A DNA stretch of 64,000 nt from Balneola sp. Lineage in GTDB: Bacteria; Bacteroidota; Rhodothermia; Balneolales; Balneolaceae. The stretch spans positions 124,001 to 188,000 of the forward strand of contig RHLJ01000006.1 in assembly GCA_003712055.1 (NCBI GenBank), given 5' to 3'. The translations under genes were made by a program, and so were the position numbers. Numbering within the stretch: the stretch's first letter is position 1; every line of letters starts with the position of its first letter. This document shows positions 37,365 to 49,034 of the stretch, one piece after another. The notes under the pieces are model-generated. The model had not been told where the DNA came from, made no database searches, and was given only the letters and a program-made list of their open reading frames with translations.

Positions 37365-38120
37365 TTGTTTAAAAAACAGATCTACATCAAAAAGAAGCGG
37401 ATTAGTCCCCTCTTGGGAGGGGATTTAGGGGTGGGTCTTGTGGTTTTTTTGTTTCTACAATTTGCTACAAATTTAAGCGCGCAGGAGGTCATCTATTCTG
37501 GCCTTGATAATCCAACCTCCATTTATGCTACTCAGGATCATCTTTTTGTAGTCGAATCTGGAAAACATCGCATTCTAAAGCTCGATCACAATGGAAAACT
37601 TCTGGAAACACTTGGGGGATTAGGCTCAGGTGATTACCAGTTCGATACCCCGATTGATATTGATGCCACTAATGGGTTAAAGATTTATATCTCTGATTAC
37701 CGTAATAACCGTGTACAGATTTTTGATCGTCGATTTCAATACCTGTCCACAATCAGAGCTCCACAAGGCCAGAGAAGTTTCAGACCAACTCAACTGATAG
37801 TCAATGATTTTGGAGAGTTGTTTGTGTACGATGAGTCCTCGAAATCAATTCATAGATATGATGAGAATGGGAATTTTATTGATAGCTATAAAGTGCCCAG
37901 TGGTCTGGAAGTTGGAAAAATCGGTTTACGTGAAGATCAACTGGCTTTGATTGATTGGAAGAATAATAAAGTCCAGTTTATGAGCCAAAATGGATTGTTA
38001 GGTGAGGAGTTTCCATTTCAAGTAGCACACATCCAGCTTTTGGATTATATGAATCTTGATAACTTGTCCTTTGAATTGGATGTCGATTCAATAATAAAAG
38101 GCGTTAATCGAGATCAATGA
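37365..38120 (+). CDS. Exported NHL-repeat protein with a repeat-derived signal peptide
   Basis: 251 residues. It starts at a TTG directly after the purD stop; no ATG is suitably placed. The signal region reads MFKKQIYIKKKR, then ISPLLGGDLGVG, then a hydrophobic core and the cleavage NLSA-QE. The middle part comes from repeat family C (37404-37438). The body has NHL-type repeats: DHLFVVESGKHRILKLDHNG, TNGLKIYISDYRNNRVQIFD and GELFVYDESSKSIHRYDENG. Probably a secreted propeller-like binding protein. Its stop overlaps the LuxE-like start by 4 bp. Confidence 0.78.
   Translation: MFKKQIYIKKKRISPLLGGDLGVGLVVFLFLQFATNLSAQEVIYSGLDNPTSIYATQDHLFVVESGKHRILKLDHNGKLLETLGGLGSGDYQFDTPIDIDATNGLKIYISDYRNNRVQIFDRRFQYLSTIRAPQGQRSFRPTQLIVNDFGELFVYDESSKSIHRYDENGNFIDSYKVPSGLEVGKIGLREDQLALIDWKNNKVQFMSQNGLLGEEFPFQVAHIQLLDYMNLDNLSFELDVDSIIKGVNRDQ
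37404..37438 (+). repeat. Family C repeat inside the NHL gene signal peptide
   Basis: AGTCCCCTCTTGGGAGGGGA followed by TTTAGGGGTGGGT. It is translated as SPLLGGDLGVG (residues 14-24) and matches intergenic copies at 25099 and 25165. Confidence 0.7.
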
Positions 38121-39094
38121 ATCCATTCGATCTTACCATTTCCTTTGAAGAAAAAGCATTTCAGGTCTTCGAGTACCAAAAAGAATTTAATCCGGTGTAT
38201 GGAAAGTTCTGCAAAGCTCTTGGTGTATCTAAAGTTTCATCGATCAAAGAGATTCCTTTGCTTCCTATTCAGGCTTTCAAAGATGCAGAACTATTGAGCC
38301 TTAAAAGTGAGGGACAAAAGCCAGAGTTAGTATTTCGAAGTTCGGGTACTTCGGGAATGAGTAGAAGTAAGCACTATGTAGTAAAGCCAGAGCTATATAG
38401 GGAATCAATTCTAAAAGGAATGCATCATTTTTATTCGTTAGATGATTTCGTGACTCTAGCTTATACACCCCGTTATAATTCTAATCCTGAGTCTTCCTTA
38501 ATATGGATGCTAAGCGAACTGATTAGAGGTGACGAATCTGGATTAAGTGGGTTTCTGGAGCTAGATAAACCATTAGAGCAAGAGCAAATTCAAAATATTT
38601 ATGTATCGGGAAAAAGAGTGATGCTTTTTGGCGCCGCTTTTGGATTGTTGGATTTAGTTGGATTCGGAGATACCAAACTCCCTAAAGACTCAATCATTAT
38701 TGAGACAGGTGGTATGAAAACATTTCGAAGGGAAATATCCAGAACGGATCTTCATGCACAACTAGCTGATGGTTTTGGAATTTCGAATAAGAATGTTCAC
38801 TCTGAATATGGAATGACGGAATTACTGAGTCAAGCCTATAGTAGGGGAAATGAGTGGTTTCAATGCGTACCATGGATGAGTGTTTCTATCCGAAAACCTG
38901 CAAACCCAATGGAAGAAATGTCAAAAGGAGAAGAAGGGCTTATCGGAGTTATTGATTTAGCTAATGTATATTCCTGTTCATTTATATTGACAGGGGACAA
39001 AGGAATTCAAAACGAAGACAGAGGTTTTCAGGTTTTAGGCAGATGGAATCCTCAGAACTTACGAGGATGTAATTTTTTGATTGATCAGGACTAA
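38117..39094 (+). CDS. LuxE-like acyl-protein synthetase
   Basis: 325 residues. It resembles LuxE-type acyl-protein synthetases of the AMP-forming family: the ATP-binding loop FRSSGTSGMSRSKHYVV (S-S-G-T-S-G), a middle segment SIIIETGGMKTFRREISRTD, and VHSEYGMTELLSQAYSR. The C-terminal part has VIDLANVYSCSFILTGDKG. In luminous bacteria LuxE activates fatty acid for the LuxC reductase. A LuxC-like gene follows 129 bp later, but no luciferase (LuxA/LuxB) is present. The start overlaps the NHL gene by 4 bp. Confidence 0.85.
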   Translation: MNPFDLTISFEEKAFQVFEYQKEFNPVYGKFCKALGVSKVSSIKEIPLLPIQAFKDAELLSLKSEGQKPELVFRSSGTSGMSRSKHYVVKPELYRESILKGMHHFYSLDDFVTLAYTPRYNSNPESSLIWMLSELIRGDESGLSGFLELDKPLEQEQIQNIYVSGKRVMLFGAAFGLLDLVGFGDTKLPKDSIIIETGGMKTFRREISRTDLHAQLADGFGISNKNVHSEYGMTELLSQAYSRGNEWFQCVPWMSVSIRKPANPMEEMSKGEEGLIGVIDLANVYSCSFILTGDKGIQNEDRGFQVLGRWNPQNLRGCNFLIDQD

Positions 39095-39104
39095 ATAATG
39101 GATT

Positions 39105-39215
39105 GTCATTCTGAGCCCTCCTTCCAAAGTATTAGTACGGAGGACAGGCATAAGCGAAGAATCTAAACGAGTGGGTTTACCCGTTCAGATCCTTCGGAAG
39201 TATCCTCAGGAGGAC
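39105..39215. repeat. Dispersed imperfect palindrome, family A copy 4
   Basis: Arms GTCATTCTGAGCCC... and ...AGATCCTTCGGAAGTATCC, CTCAGGAGGAC at the ends, enclosing GCGAAGAATCTAAACG. It is longer than the copies near 15 kb because of an extra middle segment. It lies between the LuxE-like and LuxC-like genes. Confidence 0.65.
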
Positions 39216-39223
39216 TAGTAAAA

Positions 39224-40261
39224 ATGAACATAGATAATCACATAACCCAGGTATCAGAAGCAGCAAAAAAATGGCTGCAACCAGATAATACTGCCTTAAA
39301 AAGAGCCATTGAACAAACGGTTGATGAAGAGCTGTTCAGTTTTGAAGACATCAAATTTCAGATCAGAGCACTCAAACAAAAAATTGATGCAGGGCAGGTC
39401 GAGGAATGGGCAAGGAGGGTTGGTCTAAATGAAGAGAAAAATTCGATTGGTCAAAAGGTACTTTGCTTACATGCTGGTAACCTTCCCTTAGTTGGATTTC
39501 AGGATGCGCTAGGAACTATTTTATCCGGAGCAGATTATTATGGAAAGCTCTCTAAAAAAGACCCTTACTTACTACCAACCTTTCTTGAAGAAGTAAGCAC
39601 AAGTGTTTCTGATTCAAAGATGTTTTACTCCATGGATATCGAAGCTTTTGAGGGTTTGGAATCGGATAAAGTATTATTTGCTGGCTCTTCATCCTCTGTT
39701 AATCCTGTCAAAAATGAACTTTTCCGGTTAAACGCTGCAACCGGAAAGACCGAATTTGTAATTCGAACGGCCAAGTTTTCAATGGCTTATATAACTAATG
39801 AAGATCCTGAGGTTATTACTGATTTGGTGGAAGCAATTTTTAGATATGGAGGGCAGGGTTGTAGATCGGTAGCAGTAGTAGTCAGCCCAATTCGATTCAA
39901 TAAATTGAAATGCCATTTCCAGGATTATATTGAGTCTTTTTGGTTGAAGAATCCACAGCTTAGAAAACCTAAAGAAGCTCTTGCTTATCAATTTGCTTAT
40001 AACAAGTCGATTGAACGTCCTCAGGCATGGCTGGATGATTTTCTGATCCAGGAAAGTGAGGATTTTCCAGAATTAGATTTTGCCCTGCATTGGGTACAGG
40101 GAGACGAGTCTAAAGTACTAGAGTTGAGAGAGAAATTTGGAGGAGTTGTTCAGACGGTTTATTCAGCAGGAGAGCAAATTGAAGGAATAAAAACCGAATT
40201 CCTAAGCCAGGCCCAAACTCCGGATTTATGGTGGGAGCCGGATGGGGTGGCTATTATTTAG
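39224..40261 (+). CDS. LuxC-like acyl-CoA reductase
   Basis: 345 residues. It resembles LuxC/acyl-CoA reductases of the aldehyde-dehydrogenase fold: LCLHAGNLPLVGFQDALGTI, a segment LSGADYYGKLSKKDPYLLPT for the cofactor, and a catalytic-type Cys at residue 213 in RYGGQGCRSVAVVV. The C-terminal part ends with WWEPDGVAII. With the LuxE-like protein it could form a fatty aldehyde from an acyl group. The stop overlaps the end of the convergent lipoprotein gene by 4 bp (40258-40261). Confidence 0.83.
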   Translation: MNIDNHITQVSEAAKKWLQPDNTALKRAIEQTVDEELFSFEDIKFQIRALKQKIDAGQVEEWARRVGLNEEKNSIGQKVLCLHAGNLPLVGFQDALGTILSGADYYGKLSKKDPYLLPTFLEEVSTSVSDSKMFYSMDIEAFEGLESDKVLFAGSSSSVNPVKNELFRLNAATGKTEFVIRTAKFSMAYITNEDPEVITDLVEAIFRYGGQGCRSVAVVVSPIRFNKLKCHFQDYIESFWLKNPQLRKPKEALAYQFAYNKSIERPQAWLDDFLIQESEDFPELDFALHWVQGDESKVLELREKFGGVVQTVYSAGEQIEGIKTEFLSQAQTPDLWWEPDGVAII

Positions 40262-42435
40262 TCTATTTCCTCCAGAGAAATTTTCCACTTTTCTTCAAGT
40301 TCATAAAGATTGCCAAAGTTTGGGGTTCCACTGATATGGGAATTTCTAAGGTCAATTAAATATCCCGAATCATTAAACCAATAAGAGCCTCTGTGCGATA
40401 TAGAACAGCAATTGAAGCCTATTATCTCTACAATAGGATCATCAGGAAATCTATTGATATCGACTAGATAAGCACCAGCTTGATCTGGGACATACACGAT
40501 TCCATTCTTTAAGAAAAAAGAGTTTCTAAGATTGCTACTATTGTAAAGTGTAAATTCATAGTTGAATATGCTCTGGCTTGTTCGGCTATCATAAATAGTT
40601 AGTTCATACTGATCAGTTACAGCCATTACTGAATCCAAAGAGTTGGAAAAAGATATAGGGTAACCCCAGGACTTATATGTATTATTTTCATCAGTTATCA
40701 TTCCATTTGAAATAGAGTAATAGGCTAGCTCAAAATCATTTTCTCCAAAATAGTTTGATACTACCATTCTCGTTTTACCGGGGTTAACATACATATCTGG
40801 TATTTCACTTGATGGAGAAGTAATAATATCTACAGACTCAATAGACTTAGTAGTAAGATCAATAACACTTAAATCCCACGTAGAATAGGTATCGTCAGTT
40901 GGAAATAGGGCAGCAATTTTTGAACCCTCATTGATAAAACGAGGATAGATTCTACTTAGGTTATCAACATTTATTGAATCTATGACGATAGACGATACCA
41001 AGTCGATAAGATATATTTTGTTGGTAACCGTATTAGTTGCAACAGCTGAGGTATGGTCACTATTTACTGCCAGTTCATTTATTGGCAAGGGGATTGTAAT
41101 TGAGGATGACATCCCTTCTTCTAAAAAATCAAAAAATTCTAAGGAACTCGATCCCCAATCTGTATAAGCAATAAAAGGACTTGCATTACCAAGGGTAAGC
41201 TCAAATTGCTGGAATGAAAAGAATATGTCATCGAACTCGATATTATTAACCTCTTTTAAACCTAGTCCCGATATAATTTTTTTAGTAAACGAATTTGTTG
41301 ATAGGCTTGAGGACAAATAGTAATAGTAGGATTCAAATTGGTTTAAGTTATTATCTGTAAAGCTATCTTCATTTTTTAAAATTGTACCTACTTTGGTGAA
41401 GCTAATGTTGTCCAGGCTTCTATAAACGTCTATTGTTCTTCGAATTTCAGATGGCTCAGTTATATGTATGACTATTTCAGTAGATGAATTCTGAGTAACA
41501 AGTTGTATTGCTGGTGGGCTTAGCTCAAAAGATCTATTCGAAGTAATTCGTCTGCTCAGGACCTCTCCATTTTTTGCCACTAAACTAAATCTGTAATTAA
41601 AATCTCTTGATAAAAGCTCATTAAATGTGTAGGAGGTAGAATTTCTTTCTAACTCAATTTCATTTAAGCCATTAGGTGTAGTTATGCTTAGCAAAAAAGA
41701 GTCTTCAAATTCAGAGTTTTCCTGCCATGAAATAAGAAGAGAATCCTCAGCTATTAACTGTGTTCTTAAGTTCAGTGGGCCGAGTTCAAATTCAGAGGTA
41801 TTTGTTGGTGTAATGGTAGTCGTATCTCCCCGAAATACTTTAAAGGGACGAATTTTAAACTCATGTGAAAACCCACTCTCTGGGATTGGGATGGTAGTTT
41901 CGAAAAGGTCTCCACTAATTATTTTAACAGTCTCATATGTTAAATCATTATCTGTTTTTTTAACCAACAGATATCCATCCTTGAAACTTATTTCATCATA
42001 CCAAAAGAATCGTAACTCATTAGAGCTTAGCCTTGTTTCGTGGGAAAAGGAGTTGAACGATCCAAAATCTATATCAATAGCTAAAAGATTCGATTCACTG
42101 GTGTCTTTCTCAGAAGAGATAAAATAAGTAGTCGGAAATCCGAACTCCCTGGTTGTATCTGTATATTGAGCTAAATCCTTAGGTAATACTGCAATTTTCT
42201 CTCTTGGATATTCAGCGACTTGTTTATAGATATTTACCGCTGTTTCAAATTGAGTGTTGTCTCTCCATGTAAGGGTTATATTTCCATTATTATCAATCGT
42301 GTATTGCCCATTATTGGGTCTATTTGGAACAAAATCTTCACTCCTTGGATCGTTAGGATTATCACGTTCAAAATCCGGAGCTGTACTACATCCTAAAACG
42401 AGGATTAAGAGAATAAAAGGTAGACAGAGTTTCAT
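40258..42435 (-). CDS. FN3-like/beta-propeller lipoprotein, copy 2 of a tandem module
   Basis: 725 residues. The lipobox LVLGC (Cys16) is followed by FERDNPNDPRSEDFVPNRP. The first ~300 residues carry three or more fibronectin III-like segments (ITLTWRDNTQFETAVNIYKQ, LLISWQENSEFEDSFLLS, VDVYRSL-like). The last ~300 residues are strand-rich with propeller-like repeats (FDFLEEGMSSSITIPLPINE, KIYLIDLVSSIVIDSINV, AYLVDINRFPDDPIVEIIG). The start overlaps the stop of the PEGA gene by one base (TGATG). It is the second half of a duplicated PEGA/lipoprotein pair (with 43415..45433). Function unknown; outer-membrane display is inferred. Confidence 0.78.
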   Translation of the reverse strand: MKLCLPFILLILVLGCSTAPDFERDNPNDPRSEDFVPNRPNNGQYTIDNNGNITLTWRDNTQFETAVNIYKQVAEYPREKIAVLPKDLAQYTDTTREFGFPTTYFISSEKDTSESNLLAIDIDFGSFNSFSHETRLSSNELRFFWYDEISFKDGYLLVKKTDNDLTYETVKIISGDLFETTIPIPESGFSHEFKIRPFKVFRGDTTTITPTNTSEFELGPLNLRTQLIAEDSLLISWQENSEFEDSFLLSITTPNGLNEIELERNSTSYTFNELLSRDFNYRFSLVAKNGEVLSRRITSNRSFELSPPAIQLVTQNSSTEIVIHITEPSEIRRTIDVYRSLDNISFTKVGTILKNEDSFTDNNLNQFESYYYYLSSSLSTNSFTKKIISGLGLKEVNNIEFDDIFFSFQQFELTLGNASPFIAYTDWGSSSLEFFDFLEEGMSSSITIPLPINELAVNSDHTSAVATNTVTNKIYLIDLVSSIVIDSINVDNLSRIYPRFINEGSKIAALFPTDDTYSTWDLSVIDLTTKSIESVDIITSPSSEIPDMYVNPGKTRMVVSNYFGENDFELAYYSISNGMITDENNTYKSWGYPISFSNSLDSVMAVTDQYELTIYDSRTSQSIFNYEFTLYNSSNLRNSFFLKNGIVYVPDQAGAYLVDINRFPDDPIVEIIGFNCCSISHRGSYWFNDSGYLIDLRNSHISGTPNFGNLYELEEKWKISLEEID

Positions 42436-43430
42436 CAGAAGTTAATCTTCATTGTAATTTCCGTATGTACCCCCTGGGGTAATTCTCCGGCATTTATATA
42501 AAAATCCAGATCACGTTTCTCTCTAAAACCTCCTTTTGGTTTTGAAATCCATGCATCAAATACATGTATCCCGTACGCGAGGCCAGTCATTAAAACAAAA
42601 AGATTACGTTGTCTTTTTGTATCGTCAGCTTCTTCTATTTTTAGCTCTACTTGGGTTCCCAGAGAATTAGCATCTTGTTCCGAGTCAGCTCCTTCATATA
42701 GCCTAATTAACTGGTCTATATCATCTAACTCAGAATTATAATTGATCTGAGTGCCAATAGATTTAATGAGCAAAGGATAAAAGATCCCTGCAGATAGCGC
42801 ACTTTTTAGATAATTCTTTTTATAGAATTGACTTACTCCCGGAGCGAATGAAAGCATTCTGCTGGTGTTTCTATCCGGTCTGGTATAGTGTTCATACACC
42901 TTCATGAAAGGGAGACCATTAACTCTTATCCCTTTGCCGCGATAGTTTGGGTTTTCAATTTCTATCCAGCTGCTACCTTCAGGTAAGTCTATGGCTGCAA
43001 AACCCTTGCCGATTAGTTGTCCACGGTAATAAATTTCAGAGTCACTATCAGTAAGGATAAAAGCATTCAATCCGAAATAGTCTTTTGAGGCATAATTGTT
43101 TTGTACCGAAGCAATAGAAATCTGGTCTTCAGGAAAGTTTACCTCAATAACTTTAGTTTTGACTTCCAGAACATAGACTCTCCGGGTAATCTTAGGGCTT
43201 AAAGGAGCGTTCAATTCAAAAGTGTGCATACCCTCCTCTAATTCGAGGGAATCACCACTAGTAAGCATGGTATCCTGGCTAAAATCATAATCAACAACCA
43301 CCAGGGCTGAATCGGTATTGAATTTAAAGATTATATGTCCGGTTTTCTTTTCCTGTTCTTGAGCAGACAAGGAATTGAATGCAAAAAAAGAGAATAAGAG
43401 AAGTCCTAAATGTTTTAATCGAAAATCCAT
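42435..43430 (-). CDS. PEGA-domain protein with DUF5683-like C-terminus, copy 2
   Basis: 331 residues with signal peptide (LKHLGLLLFSFFAFNSLSAQ). Residues about 30-85 and 100-165 are PEGA-like (GHIIFKFNTDSALVVVDYDF, then DSEIYYRGQLIGKGFAAIDL). The C-terminal half resembles DUF5683 regions with membrane segments (SRMLSFAPGVSQFYKKNYLK, LFVLMTGLAYGIHVFDAWIS) and ends TEITMKINF. It is paralogous to the protein at 45430: both share a PG-x-x-Q-x-x-K-x-x-x-K pattern and a KPK-x-G-x-R. Its start overlaps the end of the first lipoprotein gene by 16 bp. Confidence 0.78.
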   Translation of the reverse strand: MDFRLKHLGLLLFSFFAFNSLSAQEQEKKTGHIIFKFNTDSALVVVDYDFSQDTMLTSGDSLELEEGMHTFELNAPLSPKITRRVYVLEVKTKVIEVNFPEDQISIASVQNNYASKDYFGLNAFILTDSDSEIYYRGQLIGKGFAAIDLPEGSSWIEIENPNYRGKGIRVNGLPFMKVYEHYTRPDRNTSRMLSFAPGVSQFYKKNYLKSALSAGIFYPLLIKSIGTQINYNSELDDIDQLIRLYEGADSEQDANSLGTQVELKIEEADDTKRQRNLFVLMTGLAYGIHVFDAWISKPKGGFREKRDLDFYINAGELPQGVHTEITMKINF

Positions 43431-45433
43431 TCTTTTTTGAAGTTGAATGTTCGCAGTTCACCAGAGAATAAAAGGTACATAATTGATGCATCTGCATTTA
43501 AATCTATTGCCAATAATCTATCATCTACTTGCTCGAAATATTCTAAATATTGTTGTTGATCTTCTCCAGAGTAACATGTTATTGAGAAATTATTATTGGA
43601 TTGACTTTGTGAGCCTCTTGCTACGCAAAACTCGCTACTTTCAGAGGCTGCGGTATTATCAATTCGTGTAATCGAATCAAACTGATTGTGATCAAATGGG
43701 AAGTTAGCCTCTATTATTACATGAATTTGGAAATCATATAAATGAATTTTCGCTCCATTTTCTCCAACTTTGATATTGAATTGTTCATCTACAAATAGAT
43801 CTCTGCCATTATTATCACGGAGCCTGTAAGTGTTGGAAATTGTATTCGAGCCAATATCGTATACTACATATTCCAAGTTACCATTCCCATTTAGATCCCT
43901 AAAAAAAACGAAGACCTGATGTTTACTTTCATTATATAAAATGCGAGCTGTTCTTCCTTCTACATTCTCAATGCCAAATAAATAATCATGAGATTCAGTT
44001 TCAAAATTGTATACAGTTATGTATAGGTTTTGTGTATTTGAACCATATCTCGACAAATAAATAATTGAATGATCATCATAAAAATCAAAGTCTGTAGCTA
44101 ACATGGAAAATGTTGGTACCACTCCTCCTTCATTCTTTGAGGTCATTAATAAATTTTCAATTTCCCATCCTACTATTGATAAATCAGAATCTGCTATATA
44201 TAGCGAGGAGTTAAAGTCTAAATTGAAAGGAGGAAATTTCCCTATTCTTTTAGTTGAAGATGTACTGTAGGAAGAAACCTCGTACTCCCCATTTGAAGGA
44301 TCAATTAAAATATTATAAGGGGAAGTAGTAGATGATGCGAAGTAGAGTGAATTCGTAGTATCAATATCAACTAGTATACCATCAGCTCCCGGATAGTTAA
44401 TATCAAACGAAGTCTGTTTGTCGATCTGCTGCGTAACTCGGAAACTTCTGTTTCGCTGATTACTAGTATATACACCTCTTTTTCCTCGGAATGAAGTGAA
44501 ATATGATTCGTAGCTATTCAAACCTTGAAGTACTACTGGATTTTCAAACAGTAAATTTTCGTTTGAGAAAACCACTTCCTCATTAGATCGGGTAACTGTC
44601 AATTCATAATTATCATAAATGGTTGTAGTTTTCTGAAAATTCAAATCCCATGTTGTATCTGCATCTGTGAGATTCAATTCAATGGAACTTGTACTCAAAC
44701 TAACTAAGTCCAAAGCTTTCGATAAATCTGCAAGAATATCATCTTGATTGAATGGTATTAATCCACTTTCAAAAGAATCGGTAAATAATTTGTAGTATAA
44801 TTTGGTAGAGTCAGCATTTACATCTAATGGGTACCAGATATTTACATAAGAGAAAGGAGAGAATTCAGTAGTGTAAATAGAGGTAGGAGGCGAGTCTAAG
44901 GTTTCTAAAAATACTTCGATGGATAGATCCCGAGGGTCAATAACAGATATATCAATTTTGTATTGAGGCACAGCTGCAAAAGGATGTCTCCAAACCTGAG
45001 AGAAGACCTGAGGAAGATTTCCTAAATACTCAGTAGATGCAAAGTCGGAGTACACCGTTCCATCCAACTGCTCAAAGTAAGCTCTGACTCTAAAGAGATA
45101 GGTGAAGACCTCCGAATTAAAGTCTTCTTCAAACATATATTCAGTGCTGTTAGTTGTCGGGATTCGTTCTCGTAACTCAAAAGAATTAGTATCCGAAGTT
45201 GAGACATATACCTCATAACCAATAATACCCTCTAATTCATCTCTCTCTTGTTCCCATGTAATTCTAATCACATCAAAACTTGGGTCAAATACCGGAGGCA
45301 GTAGGGTAGGTGCAATCGGATTATATTCTGGTGAGAAAGGATCTAGTTCATTTATTTTATCCACACTTGGCAACTCTCTACAACCAAATAGTATCACTAT
45401 CATGGCGATATATAGACCAAAAGATTTCATCAA
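43415..45433 (-). CDS. FN3-like/beta-propeller lipoprotein, copy 1 of a tandem module
   Basis: 672 residues. Lipobox LFGC (Cys18), then INELDPFSPEYNPIAPTLLP. FN3-like domains are seen early (ITWEQERDELEGIIGYEVYV, YLFRVRAYFEQLDGTVYSDF) and later in the first half. The C-terminal part is strand-rich with propeller-like stretches (DFNSSLYIADSDLSIVGWEI, NLYITVYNFETESHDYLFGI). It shares architecture with 40258..42435, so it is a paralog. The start overlaps the PEGA gene by 4 bp (45430-45433). Confidence 0.78.
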   Translation of the reverse strand: MMKSFGLYIAMIVILFGCRELPSVDKINELDPFSPEYNPIAPTLLPPVFDPSFDVIRITWEQERDELEGIIGYEVYVSTSDTNSFELRERIPTTNSTEYMFEEDFNSEVFTYLFRVRAYFEQLDGTVYSDFASTEYLGNLPQVFSQVWRHPFAAVPQYKIDISVIDPRDLSIEVFLETLDSPPTSIYTTEFSPFSYVNIWYPLDVNADSTKLYYKLFTDSFESGLIPFNQDDILADLSKALDLVSLSTSSIELNLTDADTTWDLNFQKTTTIYDNYELTVTRSNEEVVFSNENLLFENPVVLQGLNSYESYFTSFRGKRGVYTSNQRNRSFRVTQQIDKQTSFDINYPGADGILVDIDTTNSLYFASSTTSPYNILIDPSNGEYEVSSYSTSSTKRIGKFPPFNLDFNSSLYIADSDLSIVGWEIENLLMTSKNEGGVVPTFSMLATDFDFYDDHSIIYLSRYGSNTQNLYITVYNFETESHDYLFGIENVEGRTARILYNESKHQVFVFFRDLNGNGNLEYVVYDIGSNTISNTYRLRDNNGRDLFVDEQFNIKVGENGAKIHLYDFQIHVIIEANFPFDHNQFDSITRIDNTAASESSEFCVARGSQSQSNNNFSITCYSGEDQQQYLEYFEQVDDRLLAIDLNADASIMYLLFSGELRTFNFKKEWIFD

Positions 45434-46419
45434 AAATTCATCCTTATAGAAAGCTGAGGATATAGTTCATTTTCTACCGGGCTTGATTGCACTACCAGAC
45501 TTGGGTCAATATTTCCAGGTCCTCTGTACCCACTTTTAGGCTTTTGAAAGCTATCAAATATTGAGTATGTATATACTAACAGAGTTCCTAATGCCAGTGC
45601 TCTCGAGGTATTATTAATTCGCTGCATTTCGTCCAAAGTAGATTCTGCCTCAAGCCGTAATGATCTAGCTTCAGCAACTGTATTAGCAGCTAAATATTCT
45701 TCGAATTGAGTATCAAAGGTTTCCTTTTTATCAGAGTATAAGGCATCAGATCTAATTGCAGCGATTCCAAGCCCCAATACTCCGGTAATAAAAACTCCTG
45801 CTTTTATATGTTGCTGTTTTCTGATTTGCCCGAATCCAGGAATTATATTCAGTGGCCTTAAATGTCTTGAAGGTTCTTCATTAAATCGGATAAAGTCTTT
45901 TACTTCAAGAGAATTGATTTTTAGTTTCGAATTTAGGGAACCATGGTCAGGATTATCGATTCTTAATTCATAACTCCCGTTGGGTAGAAATAGCTCAGAG
46001 TAATGCGAGGTAACTTCCCTACCGTCTATAAAAATTACCGATTCCTTATCGGTTAGAATCCGAAGATTTCTTCCACTTTGGATGGTATAGAAACTGGTTT
46101 TAGGGTATCGGGGATACAAGGATATAAAAATACTGTATTCAAGTGTATCAGAAGCAGGGATATCCAGTTCAAATGAATAATCATCATTATATCTACTTGA
46201 AACGGTTAATTTACGTATTCCAGACTGGAGGTTAATCTCAATACTAGACTTTGCCAGCACAGCATTTGGAACATCATCGTCTACGATCAGGTAAAATTCT
46301 TCGAGATTTGTATCCAATACTAATGTGCCTGTACCAGTGGAATCTAATTCCTGAGCAGATAAAACATTCATGCTTATAAAGGCACAAAAAAAGAAAATAA
46401 ATAGGCTTATCTTTGGCAT
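45430..46419 (-). CDS. PEGA-domain protein with DUF5683-like C-terminus, copy 1
   Basis: 329 residues from the ATG at 46419 (MPKISLFIFFFCAFISMNVL, cleaved at SAQE); the longer frame from 46488 would nearly abut leuS and adds a second hydrophobic stretch. PEGA-like domains are at about 30-90 (TGTLVLDTNLEEFYLIVDDD) and 120-165 (KESVIFIDGREVTSHYSELF, then LPNGSYELRIDNPDHGS). The C-terminal half (RPLNIIPGFGQIRKQQHIKA, ALGTLLVYTYSIFDSFQKPK) matches the copy at 42435. First gene of the four-gene unit and divergent from leuS with 80 bp between. Confidence 0.78.
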   Translation of the reverse strand: MPKISLFIFFFCAFISMNVLSAQELDSTGTGTLVLDTNLEEFYLIVDDDVPNAVLAKSSIEINLQSGIRKLTVSSRYNDDYSFELDIPASDTLEYSIFISLYPRYPKTSFYTIQSGRNLRILTDKESVIFIDGREVTSHYSELFLPNGSYELRIDNPDHGSLNSKLKINSLEVKDFIRFNEEPSRHLRPLNIIPGFGQIRKQQHIKAGVFITGVLGLGIAAIRSDALYSDKKETFDTQFEEYLAANTVAEARSLRLEAESTLDEMQRINNTSRALALGTLLVYTYSIFDSFQKPKSGYRGPGNIDPSLVVQSSPVENELYPQLSIRMNF

Positions 46420-46499
46420 TCTTTTGAATAGAGAAAGTGGCAAAAAACGTTTAGAAAAAAAAACGAAGCTTAATAATAAAACAAGCATATAAAAGGTAA

Positions 46500-49034
46500 A
46501 TGTACTCTTACAATCCAGCAGAAATAGAGACCAAGTGGCAACAGTATTGGCTCAAAAAAAAGACCTTTAAAACTCCTACTGATACTTCAAAACCAAAGTA
46601 TTATGTACTGGATATGTTCCCTTACCCAAGCGGGGCTGGATTGCATGTAGGTCATCCGGAGGGATATACCGCTACCGACATCATCGCTCGGTATAAAAGG
46701 ATGAATGGATTTAATGTGCTACATCCAATTGGTTGGGATGCATTTGGATTACCTGCCGAGCAATATGCTGTAAAAACCGGAACTCATCCTCGAATTACTA
46801 CCGAAAAAAATATTAACCGGTTTAGAGAACAGTTACGGGCTATTGGCTTTAGCTATGATTGGGATCGCGAGGTGAATACAACGGATCCAAACTATTTTAA
46901 ATGGACGCAATGGATTTTCCTTAAGCTGTTTGAAATGGGATTGGCTTATGAAGATGAAGTAGCAGTGAACTGGTGTCCGGAATTAGGAACGGTACTTGCC
47001 AACGAAGAAGTAATCGATGGAAAGAGTGAGGTCGGGGGCTATCCGGTTGTTCGAAAGCCAATGAGGCAATGGGTACTCAAAATCACTGCTTACGCCGAGC
47101 GGTTACTTGAAGGACTGGAAGATCTTGACTGGCCGGAATCTCTAAAAGATATGCAGAGAAACTGGATTGGAAAATCGATAGGTGCAGAAATTGATTTTAA
47201 AATTGATGGGTTTGAAGATAAACTAAGAGTATATACCACCAGGCCTGATACCATCTTTGGGGCTACTTATATGGTTCTTTCTCCGGAGCATCATCTGGTT
47301 TCAAAGATCACAAGCAATGAGCAGAAAGAATTAGTCGAAGAGTATCAGAATCAAGCTGCACTTAAGAGTGATCTTGATCGGCAAGAACTCTCAAAAGAGA
47401 AGACCGGAGTTTTTACGGGTGCTTACGCTATTAATCCAGCAAACGAAAAGCGTATACCAATTTGGATAGCAGATTATGTATTGGTTAGTTATGGAACAGG
47501 AGCGATCATGGCTGTGCCAGGGCAGGATGAACGGGATTGGGAGTTTGCTGAGAAATTTGATTTGCCAATTATTCGTACTGTTCAGCCTGAGGATGGATTT
47601 GAAGGAAAGGCGTATACCGGTCAAGGAGCAGCTATAAATAGTGATTTCCTAAACGGGTTGGAGATTGAAGAAGCCAAGGCCAGGATTATTGAGTGGCTCG
47701 AAGAAAAGGATGCAGGTCAAAAGGCAGTTAACTATAAGCTTCGCGATTGGTTATTTAGCCGGCAAAGATATTGGGGTGAACCATTTCCAATTGTACATGT
47801 AAATGGTGAAGCCAAAGCTATTTCTCAGGACGAACTCCCATTGCATTTACCTCAGGTAGATAATTATCAACCTACGGGAGATGGTGAGCCACCATTAGCT
47901 AATGCCACTGATTGGGTACAAACAAAAGACCCGGATACAGGTGAACAGGCAATCAGAGAAACAAATACAATGCCTCAATGGGCTGGTTCCTGCTGGTACT
48001 ATTTAAGATATATCTCTCCGGATTGGGAAGGAGGGCCAGTTGATCCTGATTATGAACAATATTGGATGCCGGTAGATTTATATGTTGGTGGTGCAGAACA
48101 TGCTGTTCTGCATCTATTATATGCTCGTTTCTGGCATAAAGTGCTTTTCGACTTAGGGGTTGTATCTACTGAGGAACCTTTCTCTAAGCTGGTGAATCAG
48201 GGAATGATTCTGGGAGAAATGGAATACACCACTGTGGATGGTGTAAAACTATCTGAAGATCAGGTAGAGAAGAAGGGAGATAGTTTCTACGAAATCAGTA
48301 CGGGGAATAGAGTTGAAGCCAGAGCCCACAAGATGAGTAAAAGCAGGGGGAATGTAATAAACCCCGACCATGTAATTGAACAGTTTGGAGCTGACTCGTT
48401 GCGATTATACGAGATGTTTATGGGGCCTTTAGAGCAGGTTAAACCATGGAGTACGAAAGGAGTTGATGGAGTAAATAGATTTCTGAATAGGGTTTGGAGA
48501 TTATTAATTGATGAATACAGTGGAGAAGTAAAAGAAAAGGTCAAGGAAATTGAACCTAATAAAGATCAACTAAAAGCCCTTCATGAAGCCATCAAAAAGG
48601 TTACTGAAGATATTGAGGCGTTACGGTTTAATACTGCTATCTCAGCAATGATGATTTTTGTTAATGAAGCAAATCAATGGGATACAATTCCAACATCTGT
48701 TGCTAAATCTTTTGTACAAATTTTATCACCATTTGCGCCACATATATCCGAAGAACTATGGAACAAATTCGGAGGTGAAGACTCTATAGCTTATTCTGAA
48801 TGGCCTGTATTTAATGAAGAATATCTAAAAGCAGATGAGATTATGTATCCCGTGCAGGTAAATGGGAAAGTACGAGCTGATATTTTTGTACCTGCGGAAA
48901 GAGCAAAAGACAAAGAATTTGTGTTAGAACTAGCTAAAAATGATCTGAAGATTGGTAAGTATTTGTCTGAGGGAGAACTGATAAAGGAAATTTTTGTTCC
49001 TGGCCGAATCATCAATTTGGTTATAAAACTCTAA
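46500..49034 (+). CDS. leuS: Leucyl-tRNA synthetase
   Basis: 844 residues. Charges tRNA-Leu and edits mischarged products. The class I HIGH motif is in [20 protein letters not shown], the KMSKS motif in [19 protein letters not shown], and the editing (CP1) domain lies between about 220 and 420 ([40 protein letters not shown]). AAAGG sits 6 bp before the ATG and may serve as the ribosome binding site. The C-terminal tRNA-binding part ends [12 protein letters not shown]. Confidence 0.97.

Follow-up and report, generated by a model that had tools for sequence, protein, structure and literature searches.

Organization of the locus

The window, a stretch of 64,000 nucleotides from Balneola sp., carries two gene pairs, i.e. 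four overlapping genes, on the minus strand at 40258–46419, in the interval between luxC and leuS (Table 1). In each pair the product of the first gene is exported and has a signal peptide that ends AQ, and that of the second is a lipoprotein. The pairs lie head to tail with overlaps of 4, 16 and 1 bp between successive genes, and the window ORFs reproduce exactly the layout given in a preliminary description of this DNA. The first codon of lipoprotein 1 is TTG and the second ATG, and a start at the ATG would reduce the first overlap from 4 bp to 1 bp. For PEGA1, the start at 46419 yields a better signal peptide than that at 46488 and is the likely one.

The genes around the module are purD, a gene for an NHL protein, luxE, luxC, leuS and a sensor kinase gene. 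We note that the NHL-repeat protein and LuxE/LuxC-like genes (37365–40261) are present in the window without other lux genes, and that the adjacency to purD is conserved in the family.

Table 1. Features of the module and its flanks in the window, and type IIG loci in other genomes
Feature	Position	Strand	Description
luxC-like gene	39224–40261	+	Hotspot flank, outside the module
Lipoprotein 2	40258–42435	−	ORF, 725 aa; lipobox LGC, leader CSTAPDFERDNPNDPRSEDFVP, four FN3, propeller
Propeller-like tip, lipoprotein 2	40261–41268	−	Residues 390–725; predicted from family profile and AF2 model
FN3 stalk, lipoprotein 2	41272–42318	−	Residues 40–388; predicted from AF2 model and profile
Lipidated cysteine and conserved leader, lipoprotein 2	42310–42390	−	C16 to N42; C, N and D invariant in 19 homologues
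PEGA2, exported PEGA-type/DUF5683 protein, copy 2	42435–43430	−	ORF, 331 aa
DUF5683 part of PEGA2	42438–42857	−	Residues 192–331; PGxxQ motif, helical hairpin, KPKxGxR, terminal amphipathic beta-hairpin ending F
Lipoprotein 1	43415–45433	−	ORF, 672 aa; lipobox FGC, leader CRELPSVDKINELDPFSPEYNP, FN3, propeller-like C-terminal part
PEGA1, exported PEGA-type/DUF5683 protein, copy 1	45430–46488	−	ORF, 352 aa; signal peptide
DUF5683 part of PEGA1	45550–45858	−	Residues 211–313 of the 352-aa ORF; Pfam
leuS	46500–49034	+	Other hotspot flank, outside the module
Type IIG locus	L189:5518–9153		
Type IIG locus	L193:5140–8627		

The exported PEGA-type proteins

PEGA1 and PEGA2 are homologous (24% identity, E 2e-25) and have in common the motif PG-x-x-Q-x-x-K-x(4)-K (PGVSQFYKKNYLK and PGFGQIRKQQHIK). 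The spacing x(4) is one residue longer than the x(3) first given, although the accompanying KPK-x-G-x-R motif was described correctly; both motifs fall within the DUF5683 region, outside the PEGA part. With Pfam, DUF5683 (cut-off 26.7) scores 35.1 bits in PEGA2, above the cut-off, and 24.6 bits in PEGA1, slightly below it, and in a genome-wide scan the same two places score 37.1 and 26.7 and are both flagged as above cut-off. The PEGA profile (PF08308, cut-off 20.8) reaches 12.8 bits in PEGA1 and has no match in PEGA2. The base proteins are therefore better described by DUF5683, which is their defining domain, than by the original label of PEGA, although the fold implied by that label agrees with the predicted structure and PEGA scores over cut-off in the distant homologues L051 and L154.

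As modelled with AlphaFold2 (mean pLDDT 89), PEGA2 consists of beta-sandwiches at residues 30–97 and 123–180, a helical hairpin (207–246/251–295) and, at its end, a beta-hairpin. Of the two sandwiches, the first is of the TTR/carboxypeptidase-D type, as in the PEGA or carboxypeptidase-regulatory-like fold, since the predicted domain 31–103 superposes on the TTR-like domain of carboxypeptidase D with a Z of 9.7 and 1.6 Å over 72 residues. A PDB fold search with the PEGA2 model returned generic CnaB/TTR and coiled-coil matches and nothing more specific; the matches to the helical hairpin (Z 8–10) were set aside as too low to be meaningful for long helices.

Nearly all members of the family end in an amphipathic strand, in most of them with a final F, and canonical DUF5683 proteins do likewise. 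Hairpins of the inner membrane follow the positive-inside rule, and the outer-membrane beta-signal is located at a C-terminal strand. To judge from its sequence, the terminal strand of the PEGA–DUF5683 proteins looks like such a beta-signal, and the segment before hairpin helix 1 carries on average 4.4 K/R versus 0.8 D/E. Positive charges on the exported side run counter to the positive-inside rule and, with a terminal strand of this kind, make it uncertain in which membrane the hairpin sits.

Canonical DUF5683 proteins (PF18935) share the signal peptide, the PGxxQ helical hairpin and the terminal strand ending F, but are short and have neither PEGA domains nor a partner lipoprotein. DUF5683 was found in nearly all searched genomes of the window's order; the canonical member in the window's own genome has 218 aa and lies directly downstream of parB, overlapping its end (L001:1498–2154). 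A caspase-like (C14) domain is also found on some PEGA–DUF5683 proteins. Such caspase-like, PEGA and DUF5683 proteins, apparently exported, are present in L157, L158 and L162 (and by eye a similar one in L159), and in L157 and L159 STAS- and ExbD-like genes recognized by eye lie close by in place of a lipoprotein.

The lipoproteins

The two lipoproteins have no similarity detectable by BLASTP, and their homology becomes visible only when profile is compared with profile (hhalign probability 99.5%, E 1.9e-22). The lipobox, leader, FN3-like and propeller-like parts attributed to both of them are recognized in each. FN3 domains stand behind the lipobox cysteine, as in FN3-bearing lipoproteins, the Pfam fn3 score (cut-off 25) being 25.3 bits, above the cut-off, for lipoprotein 1 and 23.6 for lipoprotein 2. 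Family profiles of both copies match a WD40/YVTN-like propeller in the C-terminal half. That of lipoprotein 1 matches designed propellers at 391–505 (E 1e-5) and, weakly, FN3 at 40–98, and that of lipoprotein 2 matches WD40 propellers (E 4.8e-44, 2ymu) and FN3 as well. The AF2 model of lipoprotein 2 shows an FN3 chain at 40–388 (Z 15.2 to fibronectin), after which propeller blades start at 390; confidence is low past residue 534. A PDB search with the single lipoprotein sequence gave no match, and an NCBIfam search with the four module proteins gave nothing informative.

The leader has the consensus N-x-x-D-P-x-S-x-x-F/Y-x-P. The lipoprotein export signal (LES) of the Bacteroidota is K-(D/E)2, SDDFE or similar, in which positions +2 to +6 after the cysteine include two acidic residues (PMC5080379). 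The window lipoproteins carry STAPD and RELPS there and so lack the signal, although the published motif may not be that of the Balneolota. Since the leader has no published export signal, surface exposure is uncertain and the lipoprotein may face the periplasm.

Linkage and distribution of the pair

By the terms of the preliminary description, its reading would be refuted if the PEGA and lipoprotein genes were unlinked in most relatives; they prove to be linked. When lipoprotein and PEGA profiles were run against 58 relatives, every full-length lipoprotein match (21/21) was found beside a PEGA–DUF5683 gene. Arrays with two to four PEGA genes and one to three lipoproteins are common among these relatives, and orthologous double pairs with the same gene order are present in other genera (G014, G326 and G221). 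The arrangement was correctly called a tandem duplication, and it is an ancient one, a recent duplication being ruled out by the 24% identity of the PEGA proteins together with the orthologous double pairs elsewhere. We note that in G002 (L035:9937–10404) the first lipoprotein is just 155 aa and apparently decayed, beside an intact PEGA gene.

A search of 394 Bacteroidota genomes, in which the neighbourhoods of 59 long DUF5683 genes were examined, gave the same picture: a lipoprotein gene follows directly in 47 of the 59 (the script misjudged two each way, and a check by eye leaves 47), and in nearly all of these lipoproteins N-x-x-D-P lies no more than about 35 residues from the cysteine. Of the remaining 12, five precede a further PEGA gene in their array and four are unlinked (L057, L157, L159 and L164); the last three are a gene whose lipoprotein is encoded on the other strand, a gene where the contig stops, and an orphan that closes an array. 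The leader is present on 41 of 86 neighbouring ORFs versus 9 of 358 other ORFs, and eight of these nine are further array lipoproteins or, in the case of L051, a neighbouring gene that the gene caller failed to predict. The leader is thus specific to the lipoprotein partners of PEGA–DUF5683 proteins.

The pair of FN3–WD40 lipoprotein and PEGA–DUF5683 protein also occurs in families distant from that of the window, and in two genomes a FISUMP tip takes the place of the WD40 propeller. In several genomes (L158, L161 and L165–L168) the gene after the DUF5683–lipoprotein pair encodes a third exported protein, which is very large at over 1200 aa. By the distribution of these sequences the pairing is phylum-wide and goes beyond the Balneolaeota, to which it had implicitly been restricted; the original observation was right and is more general than was then stated.

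The two partners also vary together. Distances among 25 PEGA proteins and among their partner lipoproteins (N-terminal 360 residues) are correlated with a Mantel r of 0.73, a value reached in 0 of 5000 permutations. When partners were swapped within genomes, such that species relatedness was kept, only 2 of 768 arrangements were as high, the true one included. An exception is the pair G028_2 and G197_2, whose leaders are 95% identical and whose PEGA proteins are 40% identical, so that lipoproteins in second position at a locus can depart from the PEGA allele.

Variability and mosaic alleles

The module is far more variable than its surroundings. Between the window and G014, leuS is 83%, luxC 75% and purD 76% identical, versus 31–32% for the PEGA proteins and 24–28% for the lipoproteins. 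Mosaicism of the tip was seen in g17, a genus related to that of the window, whose own copies are too diverged for such a comparison. (Balneola sp. EhC07 belongs to g17, and its locus L059 matches that of G197.) At the second locus of this genus, G106 and G197 have flanks that are 98–99% identical and PEGA proteins that are 92% identical, while identity of the lipoprotein falls from 87% (residues 1–60) through 62% (61–390) to 32% in the tip. The pattern is reversed between G028 and G144, with flanks at 97–98%, PEGA proteins at 38%, and lipoprotein identities of 43%, 51% and, in the tip, 81%. Lipoprotein segment tables read as clear mosaics, with one middle block (74–81%) common to G028_1 and G106 only.

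Third codon positions break where protein identity breaks, as in G028_2 and G197_2, where they drop from 91% to 36% at residue 278. Breakpoints as extreme were found in 0 of 300 shuffles for 9 of 15 pairs, and the DUF58 control gave weak signals (chi-square at most 15, versus up to 209 for the lipoproteins). Because silent sites share the breakpoints, positive selection alone is ruled out as the cause of tip divergence, and the g17 mosaics reflect exchange of blocks by recombination and not solely amino-acid selection. In the comparison of G028 with G197 the exchange is wider than the module, since the flanking DUF58/MoxR genes differ too (65–67% identity).

The luxC–leuS interval

We note that the luxC–leuS interval is a hotspot (window 40261–46500; L188, L189 and L193–L196). 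In G001, which belongs to the window's own genus, a gap of about 70 bp separates luxC from leuS, and these genes are also neighbours in several other genera. Within g17 the interval contains the pair (G028, G197 and G116), a DUF885 gene (G120), a type IIG restriction-methyltransferase (whole in G018, as two ORFs in G106) or nothing (G144 and G209), and homology resumes at leuS and luxC around these swapped contents. Other genomes have PIN/MazE toxin–antitoxin genes, PD-(D/E)XK proteins or a Y1 transposase there. At every module locus checked the module is AT-richer than its flanks. The G018 type IIG enzyme contains an in-frame match to a REP-type/IS200-like transposase (residues 578–691, below cut-off).

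Relationship to known systems

The literature searched on DUF5683, PEGA proteins and Balneolaceae lipoproteins yielded no description of the pair or its architecture, as the preliminary description had supposed. The closest kinds of system are polymorphic envelope receptors, and the module is a member of none of the families tested. Polymorphic toxin and allorecognition loci have a constant N-terminal part, an exchangeable C-terminal part, mosaic alleles and a hotspot location. The module shares all four, although it is without toxin or immunity genes and what is exchanged in it is a binding domain of propeller-like type.

The myxobacterial TraA/TraB system, a polymorphic kin-recognition receptor and its partner (PMC6372800), is similar in that two overlapping genes of one operon encode a stalked envelope protein, whose distal domain is highly polymorphic, and a partner that varies less. 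Pfam scans, however, found in the module no PA14-like variable domain, cysteine-rich repeats, MYXO-CTERM or OmpA-bearing beta-barrel partner; its tip is C-terminal on a lipoprotein, its partner is a DUF5683 protein and no outer-membrane exchange is known for it. Surface lipoprotein complexes of the same phylum, such as Sus-like systems, BtuG and the extracellular BAM dome (PMC10404256, PMC12578637), also pair a membrane protein with a lipoprotein, but the module has no beta-barrel partner or known export signal, and the TonB-dependent receptor of Sus-like systems is absent beside the window lipoproteins.

Possible function

We interpret these genes as a polymorphic, modular two-part display module of the cell envelope, a reading to which we give a probability of roughly one half. 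The PEGA–DUF5683 protein would be exported by way of its signal peptide and seated in a membrane, perhaps the outer one, by its helical hairpin, so that its two PEGA-type beta-sandwiches are kept outside the cytoplasm. The lipoprotein would comprise a lipid anchor, the conserved leader, an FN3 stalk and, at the far end, a tip formed by a propeller or another domain; its leader and first FN3 domain would contact the PEGA–DUF5683 protein to form a cognate base, and the tip, presumably exposed at the surface, may bind a partner that varies, for instance a phage, another cell or a surface polymer. Recombination would create new specificities, whether tips are exchanged on a base or bases beneath a tip, and pairs would be gained, lost and tandemly duplicated at fixed chromosomal sites. 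Recognition is the most likely role, by analogy of the mosaic alleles with TraA and similar systems, and the initial guess of surface recognition or adhesion fits the mosaic hypervariable tips. More tentatively, the module may represent a phylum-wide recognition system in which the DUF5683 base loads or holds the leader lipoprotein, and exchange of the FN3–propeller tip resets kin, prey or phage specificity.

The variability could alternatively be driven by phages or bacteriocins, with the lipoprotein as the receptor under attack or the pair as an anti-phage module at a defence hotspot. The hypervariable alleles speak for this, type IIG enzymes do replace the pair at luxC–leuS in G018 and G106, and toxin–antitoxin, PD-(D/E)XK and Y1 transposase genes are present there in others. 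We nevertheless consider this unlikely, since PADLOC matches 0 families for all four proteins, none of them has a nuclease, toxin or nucleotide-signalling domain, and at the second locus no defence genes were recognized in the species examined.

FN3 domains combined with propeller or FISUMP domains are common in binding proteins, and such tips, together with the multi-copy arrays, could belong to an ordinary adhesin or to a surface lipoprotein that binds polymers or nutrients and has a membrane partner of its own, its variability tracking the diversity of substrates. This is a doubtful alternative, given that no SusC-type receptor, enzyme or transporter was recognized in the pair or its flanks and that tips are exchanged between very close genomes.

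It is improbable that the pair is a periplasm-facing sensor or scaffold bridging the envelope, with the DUF5683 hairpin in the inner membrane and the lipoprotein anchored in the outer membrane on its periplasmic leaflet. The signal peptide and hairpin, and a lipoprotein without a published export signal, would suit such an arrangement, but the hairpin's positive charges are on the wrong side for the inner membrane, the C-terminus resembles a beta-signal, and mosaic hypervariability is unusual among periplasmic scaffolds. That two unrelated fast-evolving genes merely hitchhike as chance neighbours, as the existence of some orphan PEGA genes might suggest, is scarcely credible in view of the phylum-wide linkage, the specificity of the leader and the co-variation.

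As a display module of the envelope, the pair gives DUF5683, a domain for which the literature searched has no description, a partner and a testable role, and the short leader predicts which lipoproteins are partners of DUF5683 proteins. It also points to fast-recombining envelope proteins as a new group in environmental Bacteroidota, sited at a hotspot where restriction enzymes occur as well. Kin recognition and phage resistance would therefore become testable in a little-studied group.
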